Assembly: GCF_003675325.1 (NCBI RefSeq)
Contig: NZ_CP033073.1
Coordinates: 2,790,001 to 2,854,000 of the forward strand
From: Streptomyces dangxiongensis
GTDB lineage: Bacteria; Actinomycetota; Actinomycetes; Streptomycetales; Streptomycetaceae
DNA length: 64,000 nt
Direction: 5' to 3'
The first letter of the stretch is position 1; each line of letters begins with the position of its first letter. Of the stretch, positions 4,465 to 12,983 are shown piece by piece. The translations under genes and the position numbers were made by a program. The notes below the pieces were generated by a model. The model made no database searches and was not told where the DNA came from. It was given only the letters and a program-made list of their open reading frames with translations.

Positions 4465-6093
4465 CTACGCAGCCGCCGGTTCGCACCGGGCCGCGCGGCG
4501 CCGGGCCGCCAGTTCGGGGTCGAGCACGGGTACGGCGGCCAGGAGCTGCCTGGTGTACGGGTCGCGCGGGGTGTCGTACACCTCGTCGGCGGGCCCGTAC
4601 TCGACGAGCCGGCCGCGTCGCATCACCGCGACCCGGTCGCTGACCTGGCGGACCACGGCGAGGTCGTGCGCGATGAAGACCAGGGCGAGGCCCAGTTCCC
4701 GCTGGAGTTCGCCCAGGAGGGCGACCACCTGGGCCTGCGTGGTGACGTCCAGCGCGGAGACCGGCTCGTCGCAGACGATGACGCGCGGCTCGGCGGCGAG
4801 CGCCCGGGCGATGCCGATGCGCTGGCGCTGTCCGCCGCTGAACTCGTGCGGGTAGCGGTCGTAATGCGCCCCTTCGAGCCCCACGCGCTCCAGCAGTTCC
4901 GTCACGCGCCCCCGGATGCGGGCCTCGTCCCCGCCCCACGCCCGGCCCCGCTCGCGCGAGAGTCCCCCCGTCCCGCGCGCGCGGAGCGGATCGGCGATGG
5001 ACTCGCCCACGCTGCGGCGGGGGTTGAGGGAGGAGACGGGGTCCTGGAAGACCATCTGGACGGACGGGTTCACGCCGGTGTGCGGGCGACCTTCGTAGCG
5101 GATCGCGCCGGCCGTCGGCTCCAGCAGCCCGACGAGCATGCGGCCGAGCGTGGTCTTGCCGCTGCCGCTCTCCCCGACGACGCCGAGGGTCTCCCCGCGA
5201 CGCACCGTCAGCGAGACGTCGTCGACGGCCGCGACCGCGTTCCTGCCGCGCCCGAACTCGCGGCGCACGCCGGTGGCCTCCAGCACGACCTCGTCGGTGG
5301 CCGGGGAGCCGGTCCGGCGGGCGTCCACGCGCGGGACGGCGTCGAGGAGTGCGCGGGTGTACGCCTCGGCGGGCGCCGCGAGGACCGCGCCGACCGGTCC
5401 GTGCTCGACGGCCCTGCCGTGCCGCATGACGAGGACGTCGTCCACGCTTTCGGCGGCGACGCCGACGTCGTGGGTGACGAGCAGCAGGCCCATGCCGGTC
5501 TCCTCGCGCAGCGTGTGCAGCAGGTCGAGGATCTGGGCCTGGACGGTGACGTCGAGCGCGGTGGTCGGCTCGTCGGCGATGAGCAGGCTCGGTTCGCAGG
5601 CGAGGGCCATGGCGATGAGGGCGCGCTGGCGCATGCCTCCGCTGAACTCGTGCGGGCGGGACCGCGACCGGCGTGCCGCGTCCGCGATGCCCACCCGGTC
5701 CAGTACCTCGACGGCACGCGCCCGTGCGGCTCGGCGCGGCACGCGCGCGTGGACGCGGTACACCTCGGCGATCTGGTCGCCGACGGCGTAGTACGGGTCG
5801 AGCGAGGACAGCGGGTCCTGGAAGACCATGGCGGCCTTGGCGCCGCGCAGCCGCCGCAGCTCCTCGTCGGAAGTGGCCTGTACGTCGGTGCCGGCCACCC
5901 GGACGGAACCGCCGACGCGGGCCCCGGTGCCCCGGTGCAGGCCCAGCAGGGCGCCGGCGACCGTGGACTTGCCGGAGCCGGACTCGCCGACGAGGGCCAG
6001 GGCGGCGCCCTCGGCCAGGCTGAAGGAGAGCCCGTCGACGGCTCGCAGGGAGCCGAAGTCCACGGTCAGGTCCCTGACGTCCACCAGGCTCAT
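4465..6093 (-). CDS. Dual-nucleotide-binding-domain ABC ATPase of a peptide/nickel-type importer
   Basis: One 542-residue chain carries two complete ABC cassettes, like a DppD-DppF fusion. The first has Walker [10 protein letters not shown] near residue 37, signature FSGGMRQR and Walker [13 protein letters not shown]. The second has [17 protein letters not shown] and [12 protein letters not shown]. It would energise the two permeases encoded just upstream, on the cytoplasmic membrane face. The start at 6093 is chosen because it shares ATGA with the permease stop and opens directly on MSLVDVRDL, the normal beginning of an ABC cassette. A C-terminal oligopeptide-transporter extension is present. 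Confidence 0.93.
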
Positions 6094-7088
6094 GCGAGCA
6101 CCACCCGTCGGTCGGCCACCGCGTACAGCACGTCCGCGACGGCATTGGCGAGGATCACGAAGAAGCCGGTGACCAGCACCATGCCGACGACCACCGGCAG
6201 GTCGACGACCTTCACCGCGTGCACCAGCTCCTGGCCGATGCCCGGCAGACCGAAGAGCGTCTCGGTGAGGACGGCGCCGCCGACGGCGGAGCCGAAGGTG
6301 ACCGCGTTGAGCGCGATGACGGATGCCGTCGCCCCGCGCAGGGCGTGCCGGGCGATGACCGCGCGCTCGCTGACGCCGTAGGCGCGGAACGTGCGGATGT
6401 GGTCCTCGGCCAGCGTCTCCAGCATCGACGCCCGGGTCAGCCGGGCGAAGTTGGCCGCCTCGACGAGGGCGAGGGAGAACCAGGGCAGCAGCAGGTTCCA
6501 GGCCCACTGCTCGGGGTCGTCGGTGAAGTGCACGTACTGCGGGAAGGGCAGCAGTTGCAGCTCGCCGCAGACGACGATCATCAGGACGAGGCCGATGACG
6601 AAGACGGGGGTGGCCGTGCCCGCCAGGGTGAGCGCGGTCAGGACGCGCTCGGAGAGCCGGCCGCGCCGCCAGGCGGACAGCACGCCGGTGCCGATGCCGA
6701 GGAACAGCCAGATCACCATCGCGCCGGACACGAGCGAGAGGCTCACGGGCAGCTTGGTCAGGATGATGTCGGTGACCTGCTGGTCGGTCTGGTACGACTG
6801 GCCCAGGCAGGGTGCCGGGCAGTGCTCCACGGAGGTGCCCGTCGAGAAGTCCTGGCCCGCGAGGAGTCCTTGCAGGAAGTGCCAGTAGCGCACGTACAGC
6901 GGGTCGTCGAGGTGGAGTTGCTCGGCGACCTGGTGGACCTGGGCCGGGGAGCAGCGCGGGCCGCAGGTGATCTGGGCGACGTTGCCGGGGGTGACGTAGA
7001 AGACGACGTAGATGATCACCGAAAGTACGAACAGGGTGACCAGTGCGCCGACGGCCCGGCGCAGGACGAAGCCGGCGAAGCCGTTCAC
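6090..7088 (-). CDS. ABC importer permease, DppB/OppB type
   Basis: The 332-residue membrane protein has the N-terminal helix FVLRRAVGALVTLFVLSVI, typical of DppB/OppB-type permeases. A long periplasm-facing loop follows, then a BPD_transp_1 domain with about five more helices and the coupling-loop region EALAEDHIRTFRAYGVSERAV. The loop holds several cysteines (CGPRC, CPAPC). It forms the membrane channel together with the adjacent DppC-like subunit. It overlaps both neighbours by 4 bp, so the operon is translationally coupled. Confidence 0.92.
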   Translation of the reverse strand: MNGFAGFVLRRAVGALVTLFVLSVIIYVVFYVTPGNVAQITCGPRCSPAQVHQVAEQLHLDDPLYVRYWHFLQGLLAGQDFSTGTSVEHCPAPCLGQSYQTDQQVTDIILTKLPVSLSLVSGAMVIWLFLGIGTGVLSAWRRGRLSERVLTALTLAGTATPVFVIGLVLMIVVCGELQLLPFPQYVHFTDDPEQWAWNLLLPWFSLALVEAANFARLTRASMLETLAEDHIRTFRAYGVSERAVIARHALRGATASVIALNAVTFGSAVGGAVLTETLFGLPGIGQELVHAVKVVDLPVVVGMVLVTGFFVILANAVADVLYAVADRRVVLA

Positions 7089-8149
7089 GCGCGCTCCTCC
7101 TCCTTCGGTGCGGGAGCCGGTACGGCGTCCGGAGCGGGGCCCGGTGCGGCCGTCTCCGCGCGGGCCTCCCGCTTGCGGCCGGTGCCGACGCGCAGGCGTG
7201 AGGCCGCGCGCGGGTCGAGGGCCACGCGGACGCCGTCGCCGAGGACGGTCATCGCGAACACGGTGACGAACAGGGCGAGGGCCGGCAGCAGCAGGTACTG
7301 GGGGGCCGCCTGGTACCAGACGTCGGCGGAGGTGAGCATCTGCCCCCAGGACGGCGTGGGCGGCTTCACGCCGACGCCGAGGAAGGACAGGGCCGCCTCG
7401 GCGCTGATGTTCTGCGGGATCAGCAGCGCGGCGTACGTGATGACCGGTGCGGCCAGGCCCGGGAGCAGCTCGCGTACGGCGGTGCGCCCGATGCTCCAGC
7501 CGCTGAGCCGGGACGCGGCGACGTAGTCGAGGTTCTTCAGGGTGAGCGTCTGCGCGCGCACCATCTTGGCCGTGGTGCTCCAGCCGGAGACCAGGGCGAT
7601 GATCACGGCGACGAGGACGGGCCGCGGGAAACCGCTGGGCACGATGGCCAGCAGCGCGAGCGCCATGACCATCAGCGGAAGTGAGACGAAGATGTCGGTG
7701 ACGCGGCTCAGGACCGCGTCGACCCAGCGGTTGCCGAGCCCGGATGCCACGCCCACGGCGACCCCGAGGGCCACCTGCACCACCGTGGCGCCCAGCGACA
7801 CGCCGAGCGACACCCGCGCCCCGTACACGAGCCGGGCGAACATGTCGCGTCCGGTCTGCGGTTCGACGCCCAGCCAGTGGTCGGCGCCGACGCCGCCGAA
7901 GGAGCCGATGGGCACGCCTCCGCGTGCGGAGTCGATCAGCGAGGGGTGGTAGGTGGTGGGGTCCTGGCCCTCCAGGGCGGTGAGCAGGGGCGCGGCGAGC
8001 GCCACCAGGACGAGCAGCGCGACGACGGCCGCGGCGACCAGGGCGGCGCGCTGCGCCCGCAGCCGCCGCCAGAACTGATGTGCCCCCGGGGCCGCCGGGA
8101 CGGAGGTGTCCGTCCCGGCGGCCCCGACGGCGGCAAGTGCCTCGCTCAC
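7085..8149 (-). CDS. ABC importer permease, DppC/OppC type
   Basis: The 354-residue membrane protein begins with a short cytosolic tail and the helix RAALVAAAVVALLVLVALAA, as in DppC-type permeases. A PsG-rich extracytoplasmic loop and a BPD_transp_1 core follow, with VRAQTLTLKNLDYVAASRLS as the ATPase-coupling region. The C-terminal 45 residues are a charged, Ala/Pro-rich tail. It starts with GTG 4 bp after the lipoprotein stop and overlaps the next permease by 4 bp. Confidence 0.92.
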   Translation of the reverse strand: MSEALAAVGAAGTDTSVPAAPGAHQFWRRLRAQRAALVAAAVVALLVLVALAAPLLTALEGQDPTTYHPSLIDSARGGVPIGSFGGVGADHWLGVEPQTGRDMFARLVYGARVSLGVSLGATVVQVALGVAVGVASGLGNRWVDAVLSRVTDIFVSLPLMVMALALLAIVPSGFPRPVLVAVIIALVSGWSTTAKMVRAQTLTLKNLDYVAASRLSGWSIGRTAVRELLPGLAAPVITYAALLIPQNISAEAALSFLGVGVKPPTPSWGQMLTSADVWYQAAPQYLLLPALALFVTVFAMTVLGDGVRVALDPRAASRLRVGTGRKREARAETAAPGPAPDAVPAPAPKEEERA

Positions 8150-8153
8150 GGTG

Positions 8154-9872
8154 CTACTTCACCGCGACCTGGGAGATGTCCAGGACGCCGGTCCAGTCGC
8201 TGATGACGATGTTCTTGACGTCCGAGCCGTACAGACGCTTGTAGACCGGGTGGAACAGCGGCACGACGAGGGCCTTCTCGCCGATCTTCTTGTCGAGGGC
8301 GCCCCACCGCTGGGCGGCGGCGGCGAGGTCGGTCAGCTTGTTGATCCGGTCGATCTCGTCATTGACCGACTTGTCGTCGAGCAGGCCCGTGTTGAAGTTC
8401 GCGCCGTCCTTGACGATCTGCCGGCCGTCGAAGATCGGGGCGAGGAAGGGGCCGCCGGAGGGCCAGTCGGCACCCCAGTGGGCGAGGAAGAAGCCGGGCT
8501 CGGCCCGCACGCTGTGGATCTTGTCCCGGTAGTCGTTGTCCTCCAGGCCCTGCAACCTGACCGTGATGCCGGCCTTCTTGAGCGCGTCCTGGAGGGCGGT
8601 GGCGATCTCCGGGCTGGTCTCGAAGTCCTTGTCGTTGGAGTGGGTCAGCGTGACGGTGAGCCCGTTCTTGTGACCCGCCTGCGCGAGCAGTTCCCTGGCC
8701 TTGGCCGGGTTGCCGGTCTCACCGGCCGGGAACGGGTCGTACGGCGTGTAGCCGAAGGACTTCTGGTTCGGCAGGAAGGTGGTGGCGGGCTCGGCGAGGG
8801 CGCTGCCGCCGGCCGCGTTGACCACCGACGACCGGTCGATGGCGTACGAGATCGCCTGGCGCACCTTGGGGTCGTCGAACGGCTTGACCTTCGGGTTGAA
8901 CGCGATGTAGTCGGTGTAGCCGAAGTGGCCGGTGCCCACGCGCGCGGCCAGCTTCTTGTCACCGGTCACCTTGGCGAGTTCGGCCGGGCCGAGGTTGGTG
9001 TCGGTGGTGACTGCGGTGGAGTCCGCTCCCTGGGACGCGGACAGCCGCTGGTTGATCACCGAGGAGTCGAGTCCGGAGCGGACGTCGATCCTGTCCGGGT
9101 AGGCCTTGCGCTCGGGGTCCGTCGCCGCCGACCAGTTCGTGTTGCGCTGCAGGACGAGGTGCTCGCCGTCGTTCTCGTTGCGGACCACCTTGTAGGGGCC
9201 GGAGGAGACGGGGTGCGCCTCATACTTGGTGCCCGTGTCCTTGCCCTTGGGCACCGGGGTGAACTGCGTCTGGGTGGCGAGGAACGGGAACTCGCCCTCG
9301 GGCTTGTTCAGATGGAAGACGATGGTCCGGGCGTCCGGCGTCCCGATCGCGGACAGGCCCTTCTTGTCCTTGTACGGGCCCTGGTAGTCGGCGGCGCCGA
9401 CCAGCCAGTCCCGCAGATAGGGGGCTCCGCCGGAGAGTTCGGGGGCGAAGGAACGTTCGACGCCGTACTTGATGTCGGCCGAGGTGATCGGCGTGCCGTC
9501 CTCGTAGCGCAGGCCCTTCTTCAGGGTGTACGTCCACACGGTCGCGTCCTTGTTGGGGCGCCCGGTGTCGGTGGCGAGGTCCGGGACGACCTTGGCGCCG
9601 GCCGCGCCGTTCTCCCGGTTGCGCGTGGTCAGCGTGCGGAAGACGAGCGAGGGGACGTTGCCGCCGCCGGAGGTGTAGAGGCGCGCGGGGTCGAAGTCGC
9701 TCTGCGGCTGGGAGTTCAGAACCGTGAGCGTGCCGCCCTTGTGGGGCGTGGAGTCGCCACCGGAGCCCTTGGCATCGCTGTCCTTCGGTCCGCAGGCGGC
9801 GGCGCCCGCTGCCACGACCAGGCTGACGGATGCCGCTGCCACGCGGCGCGCTATGACGGACGGTTGATGCAT
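8154..9872 (-). CDS. Solute-binding lipoprotein (SBP_bac_5) of a peptide/nickel-type ABC importer
   Basis: The 572-residue precursor has a lipoprotein signal peptide ending in the lipobox AAAC near residue 23. A family 5 extracellular solute-binding domain follows, with LNSQPQSDFDPARLYTS at its start and a central segment on the pattern RQAISYAIDRSSVVNAA. Family 5 proteins capture oligopeptides, dipeptides, nickel chelates or similar ligands; the ligand cannot be fixed here. The ATG at 9872 is preferred over one at 9926 because GAGAGG lies about 11 nt upstream and the signal peptide then begins MHQPSVIARR. The gene follows a 275-nt leader with its own small ORF and hairpin. Confidence 0.92.
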   Translation of the reverse strand: MHQPSVIARRVAAASVSLVVAAGAAACGPKDSDAKGSGGDSTPHKGGTLTVLNSQPQSDFDPARLYTSGGGNVPSLVFRTLTTRNRENGAAGAKVVPDLATDTGRPNKDATVWTYTLKKGLRYEDGTPITSADIKYGVERSFAPELSGGAPYLRDWLVGAADYQGPYKDKKGLSAIGTPDARTIVFHLNKPEGEFPFLATQTQFTPVPKGKDTGTKYEAHPVSSGPYKVVRNENDGEHLVLQRNTNWSAATDPERKAYPDRIDVRSGLDSSVINQRLSASQGADSTAVTTDTNLGPAELAKVTGDKKLAARVGTGHFGYTDYIAFNPKVKPFDDPKVRQAISYAIDRSSVVNAAGGSALAEPATTFLPNQKSFGYTPYDPFPAGETGNPAKARELLAQAGHKNGLTVTLTHSNDKDFETSPEIATALQDALKKAGITVRLQGLEDNDYRDKIHSVRAEPGFFLAHWGADWPSGGPFLAPIFDGRQIVKDGANFNTGLLDDKSVNDEIDRINKLTDLAAAAQRWGALDKKIGEKALVVPLFHPVYKRLYGSDVKNIVISDWTGVLDISQVAVK

Positions 9873-9985
9873 CGGAATGACGACCTCTCGGGGAACTGAT
9901 CGAGGGATTCTCGAAGAGTGAGACATGCGGACGAGGAGTGAGACGACTGTGGGCAGACGTCAGCCCCGGCGCCGGGTCGTCGAAA

Positions 9986-10008
9986 CGTCCGTGACACGGT
10001 CACGGACG
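9986..10008 (-). terminator. 23-bp perfect palindromic hairpin in the importer leader
   Basis: CGTCCGTGAC and its exact complement are separated by ACG. It lies within the 5' leader of the solute-binding protein, between the leader ORF stop (10052) and the lipoprotein start (9872). It may be an attenuator, or the terminator of the DUF3152 gene that ends at 10204. No terminal U-run is seen. Confidence 0.55.
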
Positions 10009-10051
10009 AGAGGGAGAGAAAGGTCGCGACGCGAACGCCAGGGAGGCGGCG

Positions 10052-10147
10052 TCAGCGACAGTCGATGTCGGCCACGCAGAGCGCGGTCACGCCGATCAGC
10101 GCCAGCTCGATGGCTGCGCTGTGAGAGACGGCGTGACTGGACCACAT
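10052..10147 (-). CDS. Leaderless 31-aa putative leader peptide with late cysteines
   Basis: The frame starts at an ATG lying 7 nt after a -10 hexamer CATATT, so the predicted transcript begins at the start codon itself. It encodes 31 residues beginning MWSSHAVSHS and ending CVADIDCR, with cysteine codons at positions 24 and 30. Actinobacterial genes for sulfur metabolism and uptake are often preceded by short ORFs with C-terminal cysteines that act as attenuators. This one resembles that arrangement, upstream of the ABC importer operon. The peptide is too short for domain assignment. Function as a cysteine sensor is inference. Confidence 0.6.
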   Translation of the reverse strand: MWSSHAVSHSAAIELALIGVTALCVADIDCR

Positions 10148-10154
10148 GGGCAGA

Positions 10155-10191
10155 AATATGAACGAACTTGCGACTCATGTCAATGTGACAT
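10155..10191 (-). promoter_or_regulatory. Consensus promoter with overlapping operator-like dyad
   Basis: Reading the minus strand, -35 TTGACA (10183-10178) and -10 CATATT (10160-10155) are separated by exactly 17 nt. The dyad ATGTCA-ATG-TGACAT (10177-10191) covers the -35 box, a natural position for a repressor. The stretch is clearly more AT-rich than its surroundings. Confidence 0.75.
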
Positions 10192-10203
10192 AAGTGAGTG
10201 CCG

Positions 10204-11919
10204 TCAACTCCTGGGGTAGGGCCACGGGTTGGGCCGGCAGTGGATCCCGTCGTGGTCGAGGAACTTGGTCTGCTGCTGCATGACCGGCGCCAACTCGTTG
10301 TCCTTCTGGCAGGTCACGTGCCCGTGCCCGAGCCGGTGGCCGACCTCGTGGTTGATCAGCATCTGCCGGTACGCGTGGATGGCGCTGCCGTACGTCCGGC
10401 TTCCCTGGGCCCACCGGTACGCGTTGATCATCACTCGTTCGGTGGCGGCCGAGTCGCAGGAGACGTTGTCCTCCGTGGTGTCCAGGCCGGACTTGGCACA
10501 CCATGTGGCGGTGGTGCCGGGGCTGGCCAGCGTGATCACGAAGTCGGGCTCGCCGGAGGACACGCGCTCGAAGGTGCGGGCGCCGTCGTGGGCCCAGCTC
10601 CGGTCGTCGTTCAGCGTCTTCTGCACGGCCTCGGCGAACAGCTCACCGTCCAGCCCCAGTCCCCGCTCCACGTCCACGCGGTAGCGGTACTTCCGGCCGG
10701 CACCGGGCGCCTCGGCGGAACCGGGCACGGCGTCGAACTTCCCGGGGCCCTTCAGCGTGGCGCCGAGCGGGTACGTCCGGTTCATCTTCTGGTCGTAGGA
10801 CAGCGCCACCCCGCCCGGCGCGGTGGACGGCGCCGGTGCGCCGGAGGCGTTCGCCTCGGCGGTCCGCCCGGCGGACGGGGACTTCGCGTCGTCGTCCCGT
10901 CCCTTCGTCACCTGCCCGGCGACGACGACGGCGAGCACGGTGGTGACGGCAGCCGCCGCGATGCCGGTGAGGGCCCGTCCCCTGCTCCCGCCGCGCTGGG
11001 CGGGCAGCACGACGCCGTCGGCCGCCGAGGCGTCCGCCCGCGGCTCGCCGGCCGGCCGCTGCGGCCCCGTGCGACGGGTCCGCCCGGCGCGCACGCCGGA
11101 GACGCCGTCGCCCTCGGCGTCCTCGGAGGCGTCGGCGGGTCCCTCGAAGGCTCGGAGGTACTCCGGCCGGGGCCCGGGACCGCGTCCCGGCCCGTCCGGC
11201 CCCGCCTGCCGCTGCCGCGGCAGCACCACGCCGGCCCCGTCGGCGCCGGCCGGCCGGCTCCCGAATCCGCCCCAGCCACCCCCGGCTTCCCGCTGCTCAG
11301 GATGCCCACCCCGCGCGGACGCACCGTCCGGCAAGGGGGGCGCACCGCGCGCGGGGGTGCCTTCGGCGGACCGCGGCCCGCCGCGCGCCTCACCACCGCC
11401 CGCGCGTCCCGGCACGCCCCGGCCGGAAGCGGCGTCCGGGTGCCGGGGCACACCGCGCGCGGGGATGCCGTCGGGGAGACGGGACGCATCCCGCGCGGGC
11501 GTCGCGGCCCGGGGGCGTGGCGCGTCGCCCCGGCGGCCGTCGGGGTGCGCGTTCCGGCGGCCGTCGGTCCGCGCGTCCCGACGGTCGTCCTGGTGCACGT
11601 CCGGGTGTGCGTCGCTGCGGTTGTCGCTGCGTACGTCGCTGCGGTCGTCCGGGTGTACGTCCCTGCGGCCGTCGAAACCCGGGGCCCTGCGGTCGTCCTG
11701 GTGTACGTCCCTACGGCCGTCCGGGTGTGCGTCCCTGCGGCCGTCGGAACCTGAGGCCCGACGGTCCTCCTGGTGTACGTCCCTGCGGTCGTCCGGGTGT
11801 GCGTCCCCGTGGTCGTCGGAGTCTCGGTCCCGGCCTTCGTTCCGCTCGGGCCCTGGCCTGGCGGCTATGTCCGCGGAGTCGCTCTTCGGGGCCGGTCCGC
11901 GGCGGCTGTGGCGTCCCAC
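10204..11919 (-). CDS. DUF3152 protein: disordered repeat N-terminus, one membrane helix, extracellular zinc-protease-like domain
   Basis: About 571 residues. Residues 1-150 are an Asp/Arg/His-rich repeat (RRDVHxDDRR units) and residues 150-330 are Gly/Pro/Arg-rich. A single helix follows (LTGIAAAAVTTVLAVVVAGQ), then the DUF3152 domain. The domain ends with MLINHEVGHRLGHGHVTC, which fits the HExGHxxGxxH-type zinc site of metzincin-like proteases with a Val in place of one residue. Residues after the helix probably face outside. The GTG at 11919 is chosen because GAGGGG lies 7 nt upstream and it begins 8 bp after the upstream hydrolase gene. Peptidase activity is unproven for this family. Confidence 0.8.
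   Translation of the reverse strand: MGRHSRRGPAPKSDSADIAARPGPERNEGRDRDSDDHGDAHPDDRRDVHQEDRRASGSDGRRDAHPDGRRDVHQDDRRAPGFDGRRDVHPDDRSDVRSDNRSDAHPDVHQDDRRDARTDGRRNAHPDGRRGDAPRPRAATPARDASRLPDGIPARGVPRHPDAASGRGVPGRAGGGEARGGPRSAEGTPARGAPPLPDGASARGGHPEQREAGGGWGGFGSRPAGADGAGVVLPRQRQAGPDGPGRGPGPRPEYLRAFEGPADASEDAEGDGVSGVRAGRTRRTGPQRPAGEPRADASAADGVVLPAQRGGSRGRALTGIAAAAVTTVLAVVVAGQVTKGRDDDAKSPSAGRTAEANASGAPAPSTAPGGVALSYDQKMNRTYPLGATLKGPGKFDAVPGSAEAPGAGRKYRYRVDVERGLGLDGELFAEAVQKTLNDDRSWAHDGARTFERVSSGEPDFVITLASPGTTATWCAKSGLDTTEDNVSCDSAATERVMINAYRWAQGSRTYGSAIHAYRQMLINHEVGHRLGHGHVTCQKDNELAPVMQQQTKFLDHDGIHCRPNPWPYPRS
11588..11840 (-). repeat. Degenerate coding tandem repeat, 72-bp higher-order period
   Basis: Within the DUF3152 gene, the blocks starting at TGGTGTACGTCCCT (11699 and 11771) are 72 bp apart, equal to 24 codons of a RRDVHQDDRR...DGRRDVHPD unit. 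A weaker related copy begins at 11591. Spacing remains a multiple of three, so the repeat changes length without breaking the frame. Confidence 0.7.
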
Positions 11920-11927
11920 CCTGCCCC

Positions 11928-12983
11928 TCAGCTCCTCGCGTCCACAACGGCGGCACTGCCGCCGCCGGTGTTGCCGGTGTCGCCCGCGTCGCCGCGCGGG
12001 GCCGCGGCCTCGGCGGACGCGCCCGTGTCCGTGCCCGTGTGGGCCAGGAGGTCCCGGAACGCTCCGGCGACGATGTCCGGGTACTCCATCATCGCGACAT
12101 GGCCGGCGTCGGGCAGGGTCAGCAGGCGGGAGTCGCGGAAGGCGCGGGCGGCCTTGCGGGCCATGCGGAAGCCGACCAGTTGGTCCCGTGCGCCGTAGAC
12201 CAGCAGGGTGGGGGCGAGCACCCGCTCGGCCTGGCGCCACAGCCCGTGCTGTCCGCCGAGCGTGTAGGCGTTGACGATCCCGCGCGCGGAGCGGGCCATC
12301 GCGTCCCAGAAGTACGGCAGCCGCTGCCGCCGCTCCAGTTCCTCGACGGCCTGCTGGAACGCCTCGGGCGAGACCCGCCCGGGGTCGCCGTAGCAGAGCG
12401 CCATGACCCCGCGCACCCGCTGCTCGGCCGTCCACTCCTGGGTGAGCCGGGTGAAGAGGGCGGCGACGCCGGGCACGCCGAGGAGTCCCGTCGGCACCGC
12501 CGAGCGCTGCACGCGCAACTCGGGCAGGGCGGGCGAGACGAGGGTGAGTGTGCGGACCAGGTCGGGCCGTACGGCGGCCACGCGCGTGGCGACCGCGCCG
12601 CCGAGCGAGTTGCCGAAGAGGTGGACCGGACCGCGGCCGGCCGCGTCGAGATGGCGGATCACCGCGCGCGCGTGCCCGGTGACGGAGTAGTCACCGTCGT
12701 CCGGGGGCGGGGAGTCGCCGAAGCCCGGCAGGTCCACCGCCTCGCCGTCGACGACACCGTCCAGCTCGGCCATGAGGAGCGACCAGTTCTGCGAGGAGCC
12801 GCCGAGCCCGTGGACGTACAGCGCGGGCGCCAGCCCCTCGCGCGTGGCGGGCCGGGAACGGACCGTCAGGGTGACGCCGGGCAGACACACGGACCGCAGT
12901 CGCTCGCCCTCGCCGAGCCGGACGGGCGCCACCCTGGGAAGCACACTGGCGGCCGGCACGGACGGCGACTCGGTCGAAGACAT
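11928..12983 (-). CDS. Alpha/beta-fold hydrolase
   Basis: The 351-residue protein has the oxyanion motif YVHGLGGSSQNW near residue 53, the nucleophile elbow FGNSLGGA near residue 120, a later acid in YGARDQLVG and the histidine in DAGHVAMMEY. Those are the Ser-Asp-His elements of an esterase/lipase-type alpha/beta hydrolase. No signal peptide is visible, so it is probably cytosolic. The substrate is unknown. It lies 8 bp upstream of the DUF3152 gene, so the two are probably co-transcribed. A -10-like TAACAT lies 6 nt before the ATG with no Shine-Dalgarno sequence, suggesting a leaderless mRNA. Confidence 0.87.
   Translation of the reverse strand: MSSTESPSVPAASVLPRVAPVRLGEGERLRSVCLPGVTLTVRSRPATREGLAPALYVHGLGGSSQNWSLLMAELDGVVDGEAVDLPGFGDSPPPDDGDYSVTGHARAVIRHLDAAGRGPVHLFGNSLGGAVATRVAAVRPDLVRTLTLVSPALPELRVQRSAVPTGLLGVPGVAALFTRLTQEWTAEQRVRGVMALCYGDPGRVSPEAFQQAVEELERRQRLPYFWDAMARSARGIVNAYTLGGQHGLWRQAERVLAPTLLVYGARDQLVGFRMARKAARAFRDSRLLTLPDAGHVAMMEYPDIVAGAFRDLLAHTGTDTGASAEAAAPRGDAGDTGNTGGGSAAVVDARS

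Follow-up and report, generated by a model that had tools for sequence, protein, structure and literature searches.

Leaderless polycysteine attenuators, in which pausing of the ribosome frees the ribosome-binding site (RBS), were reportedly described for mycobacteria in Canestrari 2020. This mechanism is relayed in the available parts of PMC9031893 and PMC13236596. According to the parts at hand of PMC9031893 and PMC4633059 the mycobacterial Cys leaders are leaderless, and Cys-rich uORFs precede cysA2, Rv0485 and nirA (PMC4633059). In Streptomyces lividans, eight leader peptides are covered by the accessible portion of PMC8079986, where none is termed cysteine-dependent. The metL peptide of strain TK24, located before metNIQ and called methionine-dependent in that portion, has three Cys near its end and may be a cysteine leader. 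Part of PMC9094748 was an additional source, and four sought terms were absent from the main text of PMC4895711. A literature search found no paper on a Streptomyces leader of the Ms4533A type or on a sensor UGU, an earlier report in Canestrari 2020 being possible.

The window, i.e., the whole stretch of 64,000 nt of Streptomyces dangxiongensis DNA that was analysed, bears a 31-codon ORF on its minus strand (10052-10147), upstream of the genes of an ABC importer. We consider it likely that this ORF, a leader of the Ms4533A family, senses cysteine in cis and tunes an importer of the oligopeptide type. It reads MWSSHAVSHSAAIELALIGVTALCVADIDCR followed by TGA from 10147 to 10052; leader and importer share the minus strand, and leader position N corresponds to window coordinate 10148 - N. 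The promoter (10155-10183, minus) stands exactly as the first-pass annotation had read it, with -35 TTGACA at 10183-10178, a 17-nt spacer and -10 CATATT at 10160-10155. It was the single site in a promoter scan of 9700-10400 (shuffles, mean 0.0), and TTGAC lies 35-37 nt 5' of the leader ATG in 80/80 loci (best 80 of 215 relatives). An ATG placed 7 nt past the -10 box and opening the 31-codon frame was confirmed at 10147, and the lipoprotein ATG is located at 9872, the claimed 275 nt from 10147. The proposed leaderless start is compatible with the conserved promoter spacing, because of which we infer that transcription starts at or beside the leader ATG and yields a leaderless mRNA. The 6+6 dyad ATGTCA-CAT-TGACAT was also found across the -35 box, as annotated (10191-10177, minus), and is a possible operator for some regulator; it is perfect in just 33/80 relatives, with at least 4/6 matches in 65/80 (best 80 of 215), and so falls short of the promoter in conservation. 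Immediately upstream, a same-strand ORF (10204-12435, minus) carries INHEVGHRLGHGH close to its end, which in our view presumably resembles a zinc-protease motif.

In NCBIfam, the leader peptide hits NF042937 ("Ms4533A family Cys-rich leader peptide"), scoring 51.6 bits where the cut-off is 31. The match is full-length (peptide residues 2-31 on profile positions 1-30 of 30), and by this profile evidence the ORF is a member of the known family; since it falls in a named family, its kind of leader is already known. There was no match in Pfam, and an Rfam covariance-model search of 9500-10600 (E up to 1) returned 0 matches. From AAIELALIGVT through the C-terminus the peptide is nearly fixed over 80 loci (best 80 of 215 relatives), while its N-terminal third is variable, above all at residues 8-9. 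The profile match, together with the linkage described below, supports the earlier claim of a Cys leader ORF before the importer.

Linkage was followed from both sides. When 80 Streptomyces loci were fetched with the lipoprotein alone (the best 80 of 215 relatives, hence close ones), the leader ORF was present in 80/80, a strict peptide pattern catching it in 78 and the remaining two carrying a variant outside the pattern. The comparative search for the ORF upstream of orthologous importers that the first-pass annotation had put forward thus found the leader throughout this set. Among 61 genomes drawn from the genus, the own genome included, the peptide was matched in 39 (E up to 1); four of these had no E below 0.3 and were counted as misses, leaving 35 genomes with a credible leader. 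The importer orthologue adjoins the leader in all 30 fetched loci of these 35 and, by coordinates, in three further genomes (G035, G036, G060), G031 and G048 lying outside the test. The 26 remaining genomes of the draw have no credible leader (two of them, G001 and G050, are just 79 and 82% complete), and their best importer relative is at most 44% identical (26/26, as 22 + 4 genomes), by which the importer orthologue appears to be absent from all of them. Two leader patterns run against 30 loci around such distant importer relatives found nothing. In the genomes tested, leader and importer co-occur or are both absent.

Beyond the genus, a family-wide scan placed 64/200 genomes above the NF042937 cut-off and a phylum-wide scan 11/396, these being four of the own genus and seven of one other family, which the name of the leader family and the gene context suggest to be Mycobacteriaceae. 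Within the own family the leader adjoins an SBP_bac_5 orthologue in 60/61 distinct loci chosen by leader (59 by tblastn and one, L068, read by eye, with the own locus counted once). The linkage to the importer is therefore tight, at 80/80 by importer (best 80 of 215) and 60/61 by leader. At the exception (L031, genome G240) the leader is followed by part of an ATPase gene where the lipoprotein gene would be expected, which could be a deletion or an assembly fault. The stretch LALI-V...VAD-C is common to the leaders of the own family and of the presumed Mycobacteriaceae, and the gene downstream differs. In the own family it belongs to the SBP_bac_5 importer, whereas in the presumed Mycobacteriaceae it encodes a sulfate-type binding protein in 7/7 loci (three were scanned and pass TIGR00971; the other four were judged similar by eye).

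The importer of the window comprises, all on the minus strand, a substrate-binding lipoprotein (8154-9872; SBP_bac_5, PF00496, 255 bits against a gathering score of 32.4), permeases of the OppC (7085-8149) and OppB (6090-7088) types called from profile matches, and an ATPase with two ABC domains (4465-6093, the start near 6093 being inferred, as the listed ORF begins at 6507). Among solved structures, the one closest to the lipoprotein in sequence is 2wok (289 bits), an oligopeptide-binding protein, and none of the 13 NCBIfam families among the matches listed reaches its cut-off. A nickel-type importer was considered and rejected, since the NikA score of 59.6 bits is below the cut-off of 393 and the closest solved relative binds oligopeptides. 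Hence, of the "peptide/nickel-type" label given at first, the peptide half holds and the nickel half does not; judged by these matches, the importer is of the oligopeptide-binding type. The proposed link to sulfur found support, as the counterparts of the leader in the presumed Mycobacteriaceae precede a sulfate-type importer, and for this reason the importer probably feeds the sulfur supply. Reasoning from the leader, the sulfur source imported would most likely be, e.g., Cys-containing peptides or glutathione-like compounds.

The leader of the window contains two cysteines, Cys24 (UGC, 10076-10078, minus) and Cys30 (UGU, 10058-10060, minus), and no contiguous Cys run. The penultimate Cys is present in 80/80 loci (best 80 of 215), in 61/61 own-family rows (60 distinct loci, L068 not being parsed) and in 7/7 loci of the presumed Mycobacteriaceae. 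At the internal position the same 61 rows have 44 Cys, 13 Ser and 4 Ala. The internal Cys had been counted as part of the signature, and this has to be withdrawn, as the penultimate Cys alone is invariant. A second Cys directly follows the penultimate one in 11/80 loci (best 80 of 215). The codon of the penultimate Cys is likewise invariant, being TGT in 80/80 loci (best 80 of 215), in 61/61 own-family rows, a set that overlaps with the former, and in the seven loci of the presumed Mycobacteriaceae (7/7). It is TGC at the internal Cys in 76/80 loci (best 80 of 215) and in 80/80 lipoprotein-gene Cys codons of the relatives' loci. TGT is rare in the window, where it accounts for 15/115 Cys codons of 41 long ORFs. 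We also asked if UGU could be a by-product of the RNA helix A:B described below, and this was rejected: position 90 is U despite not pairing with position 124 in 11/81 leaders (best 80 of 215 plus the window), so A:B pairing alone cannot explain UGU.

The same contrast was met in another group of leaders. The own genome has seven NF042934 leaders above cut-off (L150-L156) and, with the NF042937 one, at least eight cysteine leaders. The genes downstream, read from the largest GC-rich reading frame after each NF042934 leader, include cysteine synthase (over cut-off), cysteine dioxygenase, two FMN monooxygenases (SfnG, the dimethylsulfone monooxygenase, over cut-off, and one of the DmoA type, below cut-off), a nitrite/sulfite reductase, a rhodanese and a GST-like protein, and from these assignments they would mostly belong to sulfur metabolism. 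A sample of 76 NF042934 loci (L150-L225; 36 from searches and 40 picked among the matches listed) gave 75 parsed leaders, in which the core Cys is TGT in 74/75, equal to 66/67 distinct sequences, and the other Cys codons are TGC in 74/80 (among the matches listed). In the sole exception (L224) it is the core Cys that uses TGC, one upstream Cys being TGT, and a leader outside the 75 parsed (L156) places its Cys, encoded by TGT, at another point of the motif. For NF042936, seven loci of the presumed Mycobacteriaceae (5/7 above the family cut-off) have mostly TGT (21/25) without positional contrast. Since the search for leaders used protein scores, the TGT preference is not built into the sampling; the codon counts come from related loci and are hence not independent. 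A codon rule for Streptomyces cysteine leaders, by which the sensing Cys is the rare UGU and neighbouring Cys are UGC whatever the peptide motif, seems to us an evenly balanced proposition. There is one tRNA-Cys, with anticodon GCA. If the rule is true, UGU would mark the sensor codon, and with a single tRNA-Cys its wobble decoding would have been chosen for maximal sensitivity of the pause to Cys-tRNA charging.

Eight helices were counted over 81 leaders (best 80 of 215 plus the window), with slid versions as controls; all eight were either derived from the consensus of these very leaders or hand-chosen from them, which favours them over the slid versions. Helix A:B joins arm A (10049-10059, minus; the last part of the Cys30 codon, then Arg31 and the stop) to arm B (10023-10032, minus), which has arm C as its alternative partner. 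A:B is paired in 93.3% of cells (slid, 14-58%) with one double-sided change. The hairpin P2 (9986-10008, minus) had been annotated as a perfect 23-bp hairpin, and it is in fact 23 nt long, with two 10-nt arms forming a 10-bp stem and a 3-nt loop. Its core is paired in 92.1% of cells (slid, 22-43%), with 16 further pair types and 17 double-sided cells; percent paired is the better measure here, because the slid versions reach 6-25 double-sided cells. Arm C, GACGACC (9975-9981, minus), is complementary to the ribosome-binding region (9879-9889, minus), where the Shine-Dalgarno GAGAGG (9889-9884) overlaps arm D, GGTCGTC (9885-9879). C:D is paired in 98.7% of cells (slid, 16-72%) and the candidate switch B:C in 98.8% (slid, 4-79%), neither with double-sided changes. 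A further helix, of UCUC (225-228) with the GAGA of the Shine-Dalgarno, was rejected as non-specific, as sliding it by 2 left 99.4% paired versus 99.1%. Anti-Shine-Dalgarno complementarity was weakly better than in shuffles (mean z -0.88) and the best of 61 in 8/80 loci (best 80 of 215). Inside the leader ORF a separate hairpin is also conserved (leader positions 11-62, window 10086-10137, minus), the core of which, 13-18 with 55-60, is 98.4% paired with six double-sided cells, the slid versions having none (best 80 of 215 plus the window).

A ribosome at Cys30 was modelled by folding the cut RNA from nt 102 on, over the same 81 leaders (best 80 of 215 plus the window). It does not raise the openness of the Shine-Dalgarno, the mean of which is 0.172 in the full leader and 0.159 in the cut RNA; openness increases in 4 of the 81 and decreases in 7, and in the window it goes from 0.037 to 0.003. 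B:C exceeds 0.5 in 20/81 loci for nt 102-175 versus 1/81 with A free, and in the longer RNAs (102-190, 102-218) in 16/81 versus 8-11, where the window stays at about 0.01. For the window, the prediction for A:B is 0.99 with nt 1-175, 0.18 with nt 1-190, 0.02 with nt 1-218 and 0.06 with nt 1-240; the helix is folded solely in short RNAs or in the whole leader.

The mechanism that we favour would run as follows. Transcription would begin at or next to the leader ATG and a ribosome would translate the leader, pausing at the penultimate rare UGU codon when charged Cys-tRNA is scarce. The pause at Cys30 is deduced from the invariance of the Cys and its codon and from the reported behaviour of the family in mycobacteria. 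It would sit on the 5' arm of A:B, the conserved helix at the stop codon, and would raise expression of the importer, which would then bring in the sulfur source. As the most likely output we propose, with somewhat less than even confidence, that the Shine-Dalgarno region is kept from C:D pairing, although equilibrium folding does not predict such an opening. Since thermodynamics fails to complete the model, we rate sensing at Cys30 as likely and leave the output between translation and termination. The second route, transcription attenuation, has the same sensing step: completion of the leader would lead to termination before the importer, at P2 as an intrinsic terminator or via Rho, and the pause at Cys30 would prevent it. 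P2 is conserved and is directly followed by a T run of at least 4 in 34/81 leaders, but by one of just 1-2 in 25/81 (best 80 of 215 plus the window), and a terminator scan of 9700-10400 called 0 intrinsic terminators, P2 included. In favour of Rho, the stretch of RNA that separates the leader ORF from the importer is rich in C (80 loci, best 80 of 215: mean C 0.39, mean G 0.25; in the window, its C minus G is at the 97th percentile among the window's 180-nt stretches), and Rho is weakly suggested for mycobacterial Cys leaders in the available part of PMC1262725. A non-systematic look found no conserved antiterminator of P2, and the conserved pairing extends to the Shine-Dalgarno region. Altogether termination as the output appears rather unlikely to us.

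Two readings depart from codon-level sensing altogether. The core IELALIGVT-LCVADI-C could act as an arrest peptide, stalling as a nascent chain under modulation by cysteine or another ligand instead of by codon hunger. Its near-invariance in 80 loci (best 80 of 215) beside a variable N-terminal third would suit such a peptide, as would the LALI-V...VAD-C stretch in the presumed mycobacterial leaders. The importer gene varies more at synonymous sites than the core does, but not significantly so (0.133 vs 0.091, p 0.11, 16 columns, 70 loci), so that extra synonymous-site constraint across the whole core was not significant and the conservation is not purely at the DNA level. Among close relatives, however, conservation of the core barely exceeds that of the importer protein (0.76 vs 0.73 of columns at 95% or more), and the invariant rare UGU is a codon-level signature that an arrest would not need; we judge the arrest peptide unlikely. 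A chance ORF, or a small protein with a function of its own apart from importer control, might be invoked as long as translation and regulation of the leader are predictions. Conservation beside the importer in 80/80 loci (best 80 of 215), joint absence with the importer and the match to the curated family NF042937 make it very improbable. Sensing of cysteine at Cys30 by an Ms4533A-family leader is thus our preferred reading, and it gives a testable substrate class to an importer that sequence alone leaves ambiguous. If the codon rule also holds, an orphan oligopeptide-type importer becomes assignable to sulfur supply via its leader, and UGU at the sensor would offer a simple codon signature for locating and testing sensing codons in cysteine leaders.

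Compared with the described systems, the leader agrees with NF042937 in its full-length profile match, as a short ORF before an uptake operon and with a Cys beside the stop codon, and one leader family is here attached to two kinds of importer, an SBP_bac_5 oligopeptide-type binding protein being encoded downstream in the window and a sulfate-type one in the presumed Mycobacteriaceae. With the leaderless polycysteine attenuators of mycobacteria it shares the short ORF, predicted to be leaderless here, and the Cys codons near its end. Those attenuators precede sulfur genes, as the window leader would if its oligopeptide-type importer feeds the sulfur supply. They have a contiguous Cys run, which the window leader lacks, and release of the RBS is not supported by folding for it. 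Leaderlessness, which the first-pass annotation took as distinguishing, sets nothing apart, because mycobacterial Cys leaders are leaderless too (PMC9031893 and PMC4633059, in the parts at hand). The Mycobacterium cys-operon leaders predicted in 2005 are alike in their Cys codons near the stop and in having no conserved terminator, and the cysteine section of that paper, as far as available, names Mycobacterium, Propionibacterium and Bifidobacterium and not Streptomyces (PMC1262725). The uORFC-8-2 leader of cysS in Rhodobacterales also has Cys codons in a uORF for which attenuation is proposed, but UGC dominates and an intrinsic terminator is present there, unlike in the window leader (PMC8632094, available part). 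The NF042934 cis_reg_atten leaders occur in the own genome too, with mostly sulfur genes downstream and UGU at the core Cys, although their peptide motif differs. While the kind of leader is known, what would be new here is its target, an importer of the oligopeptide and not the sulfate type, together with the strict preference for a rare codon at the presumed sensor.
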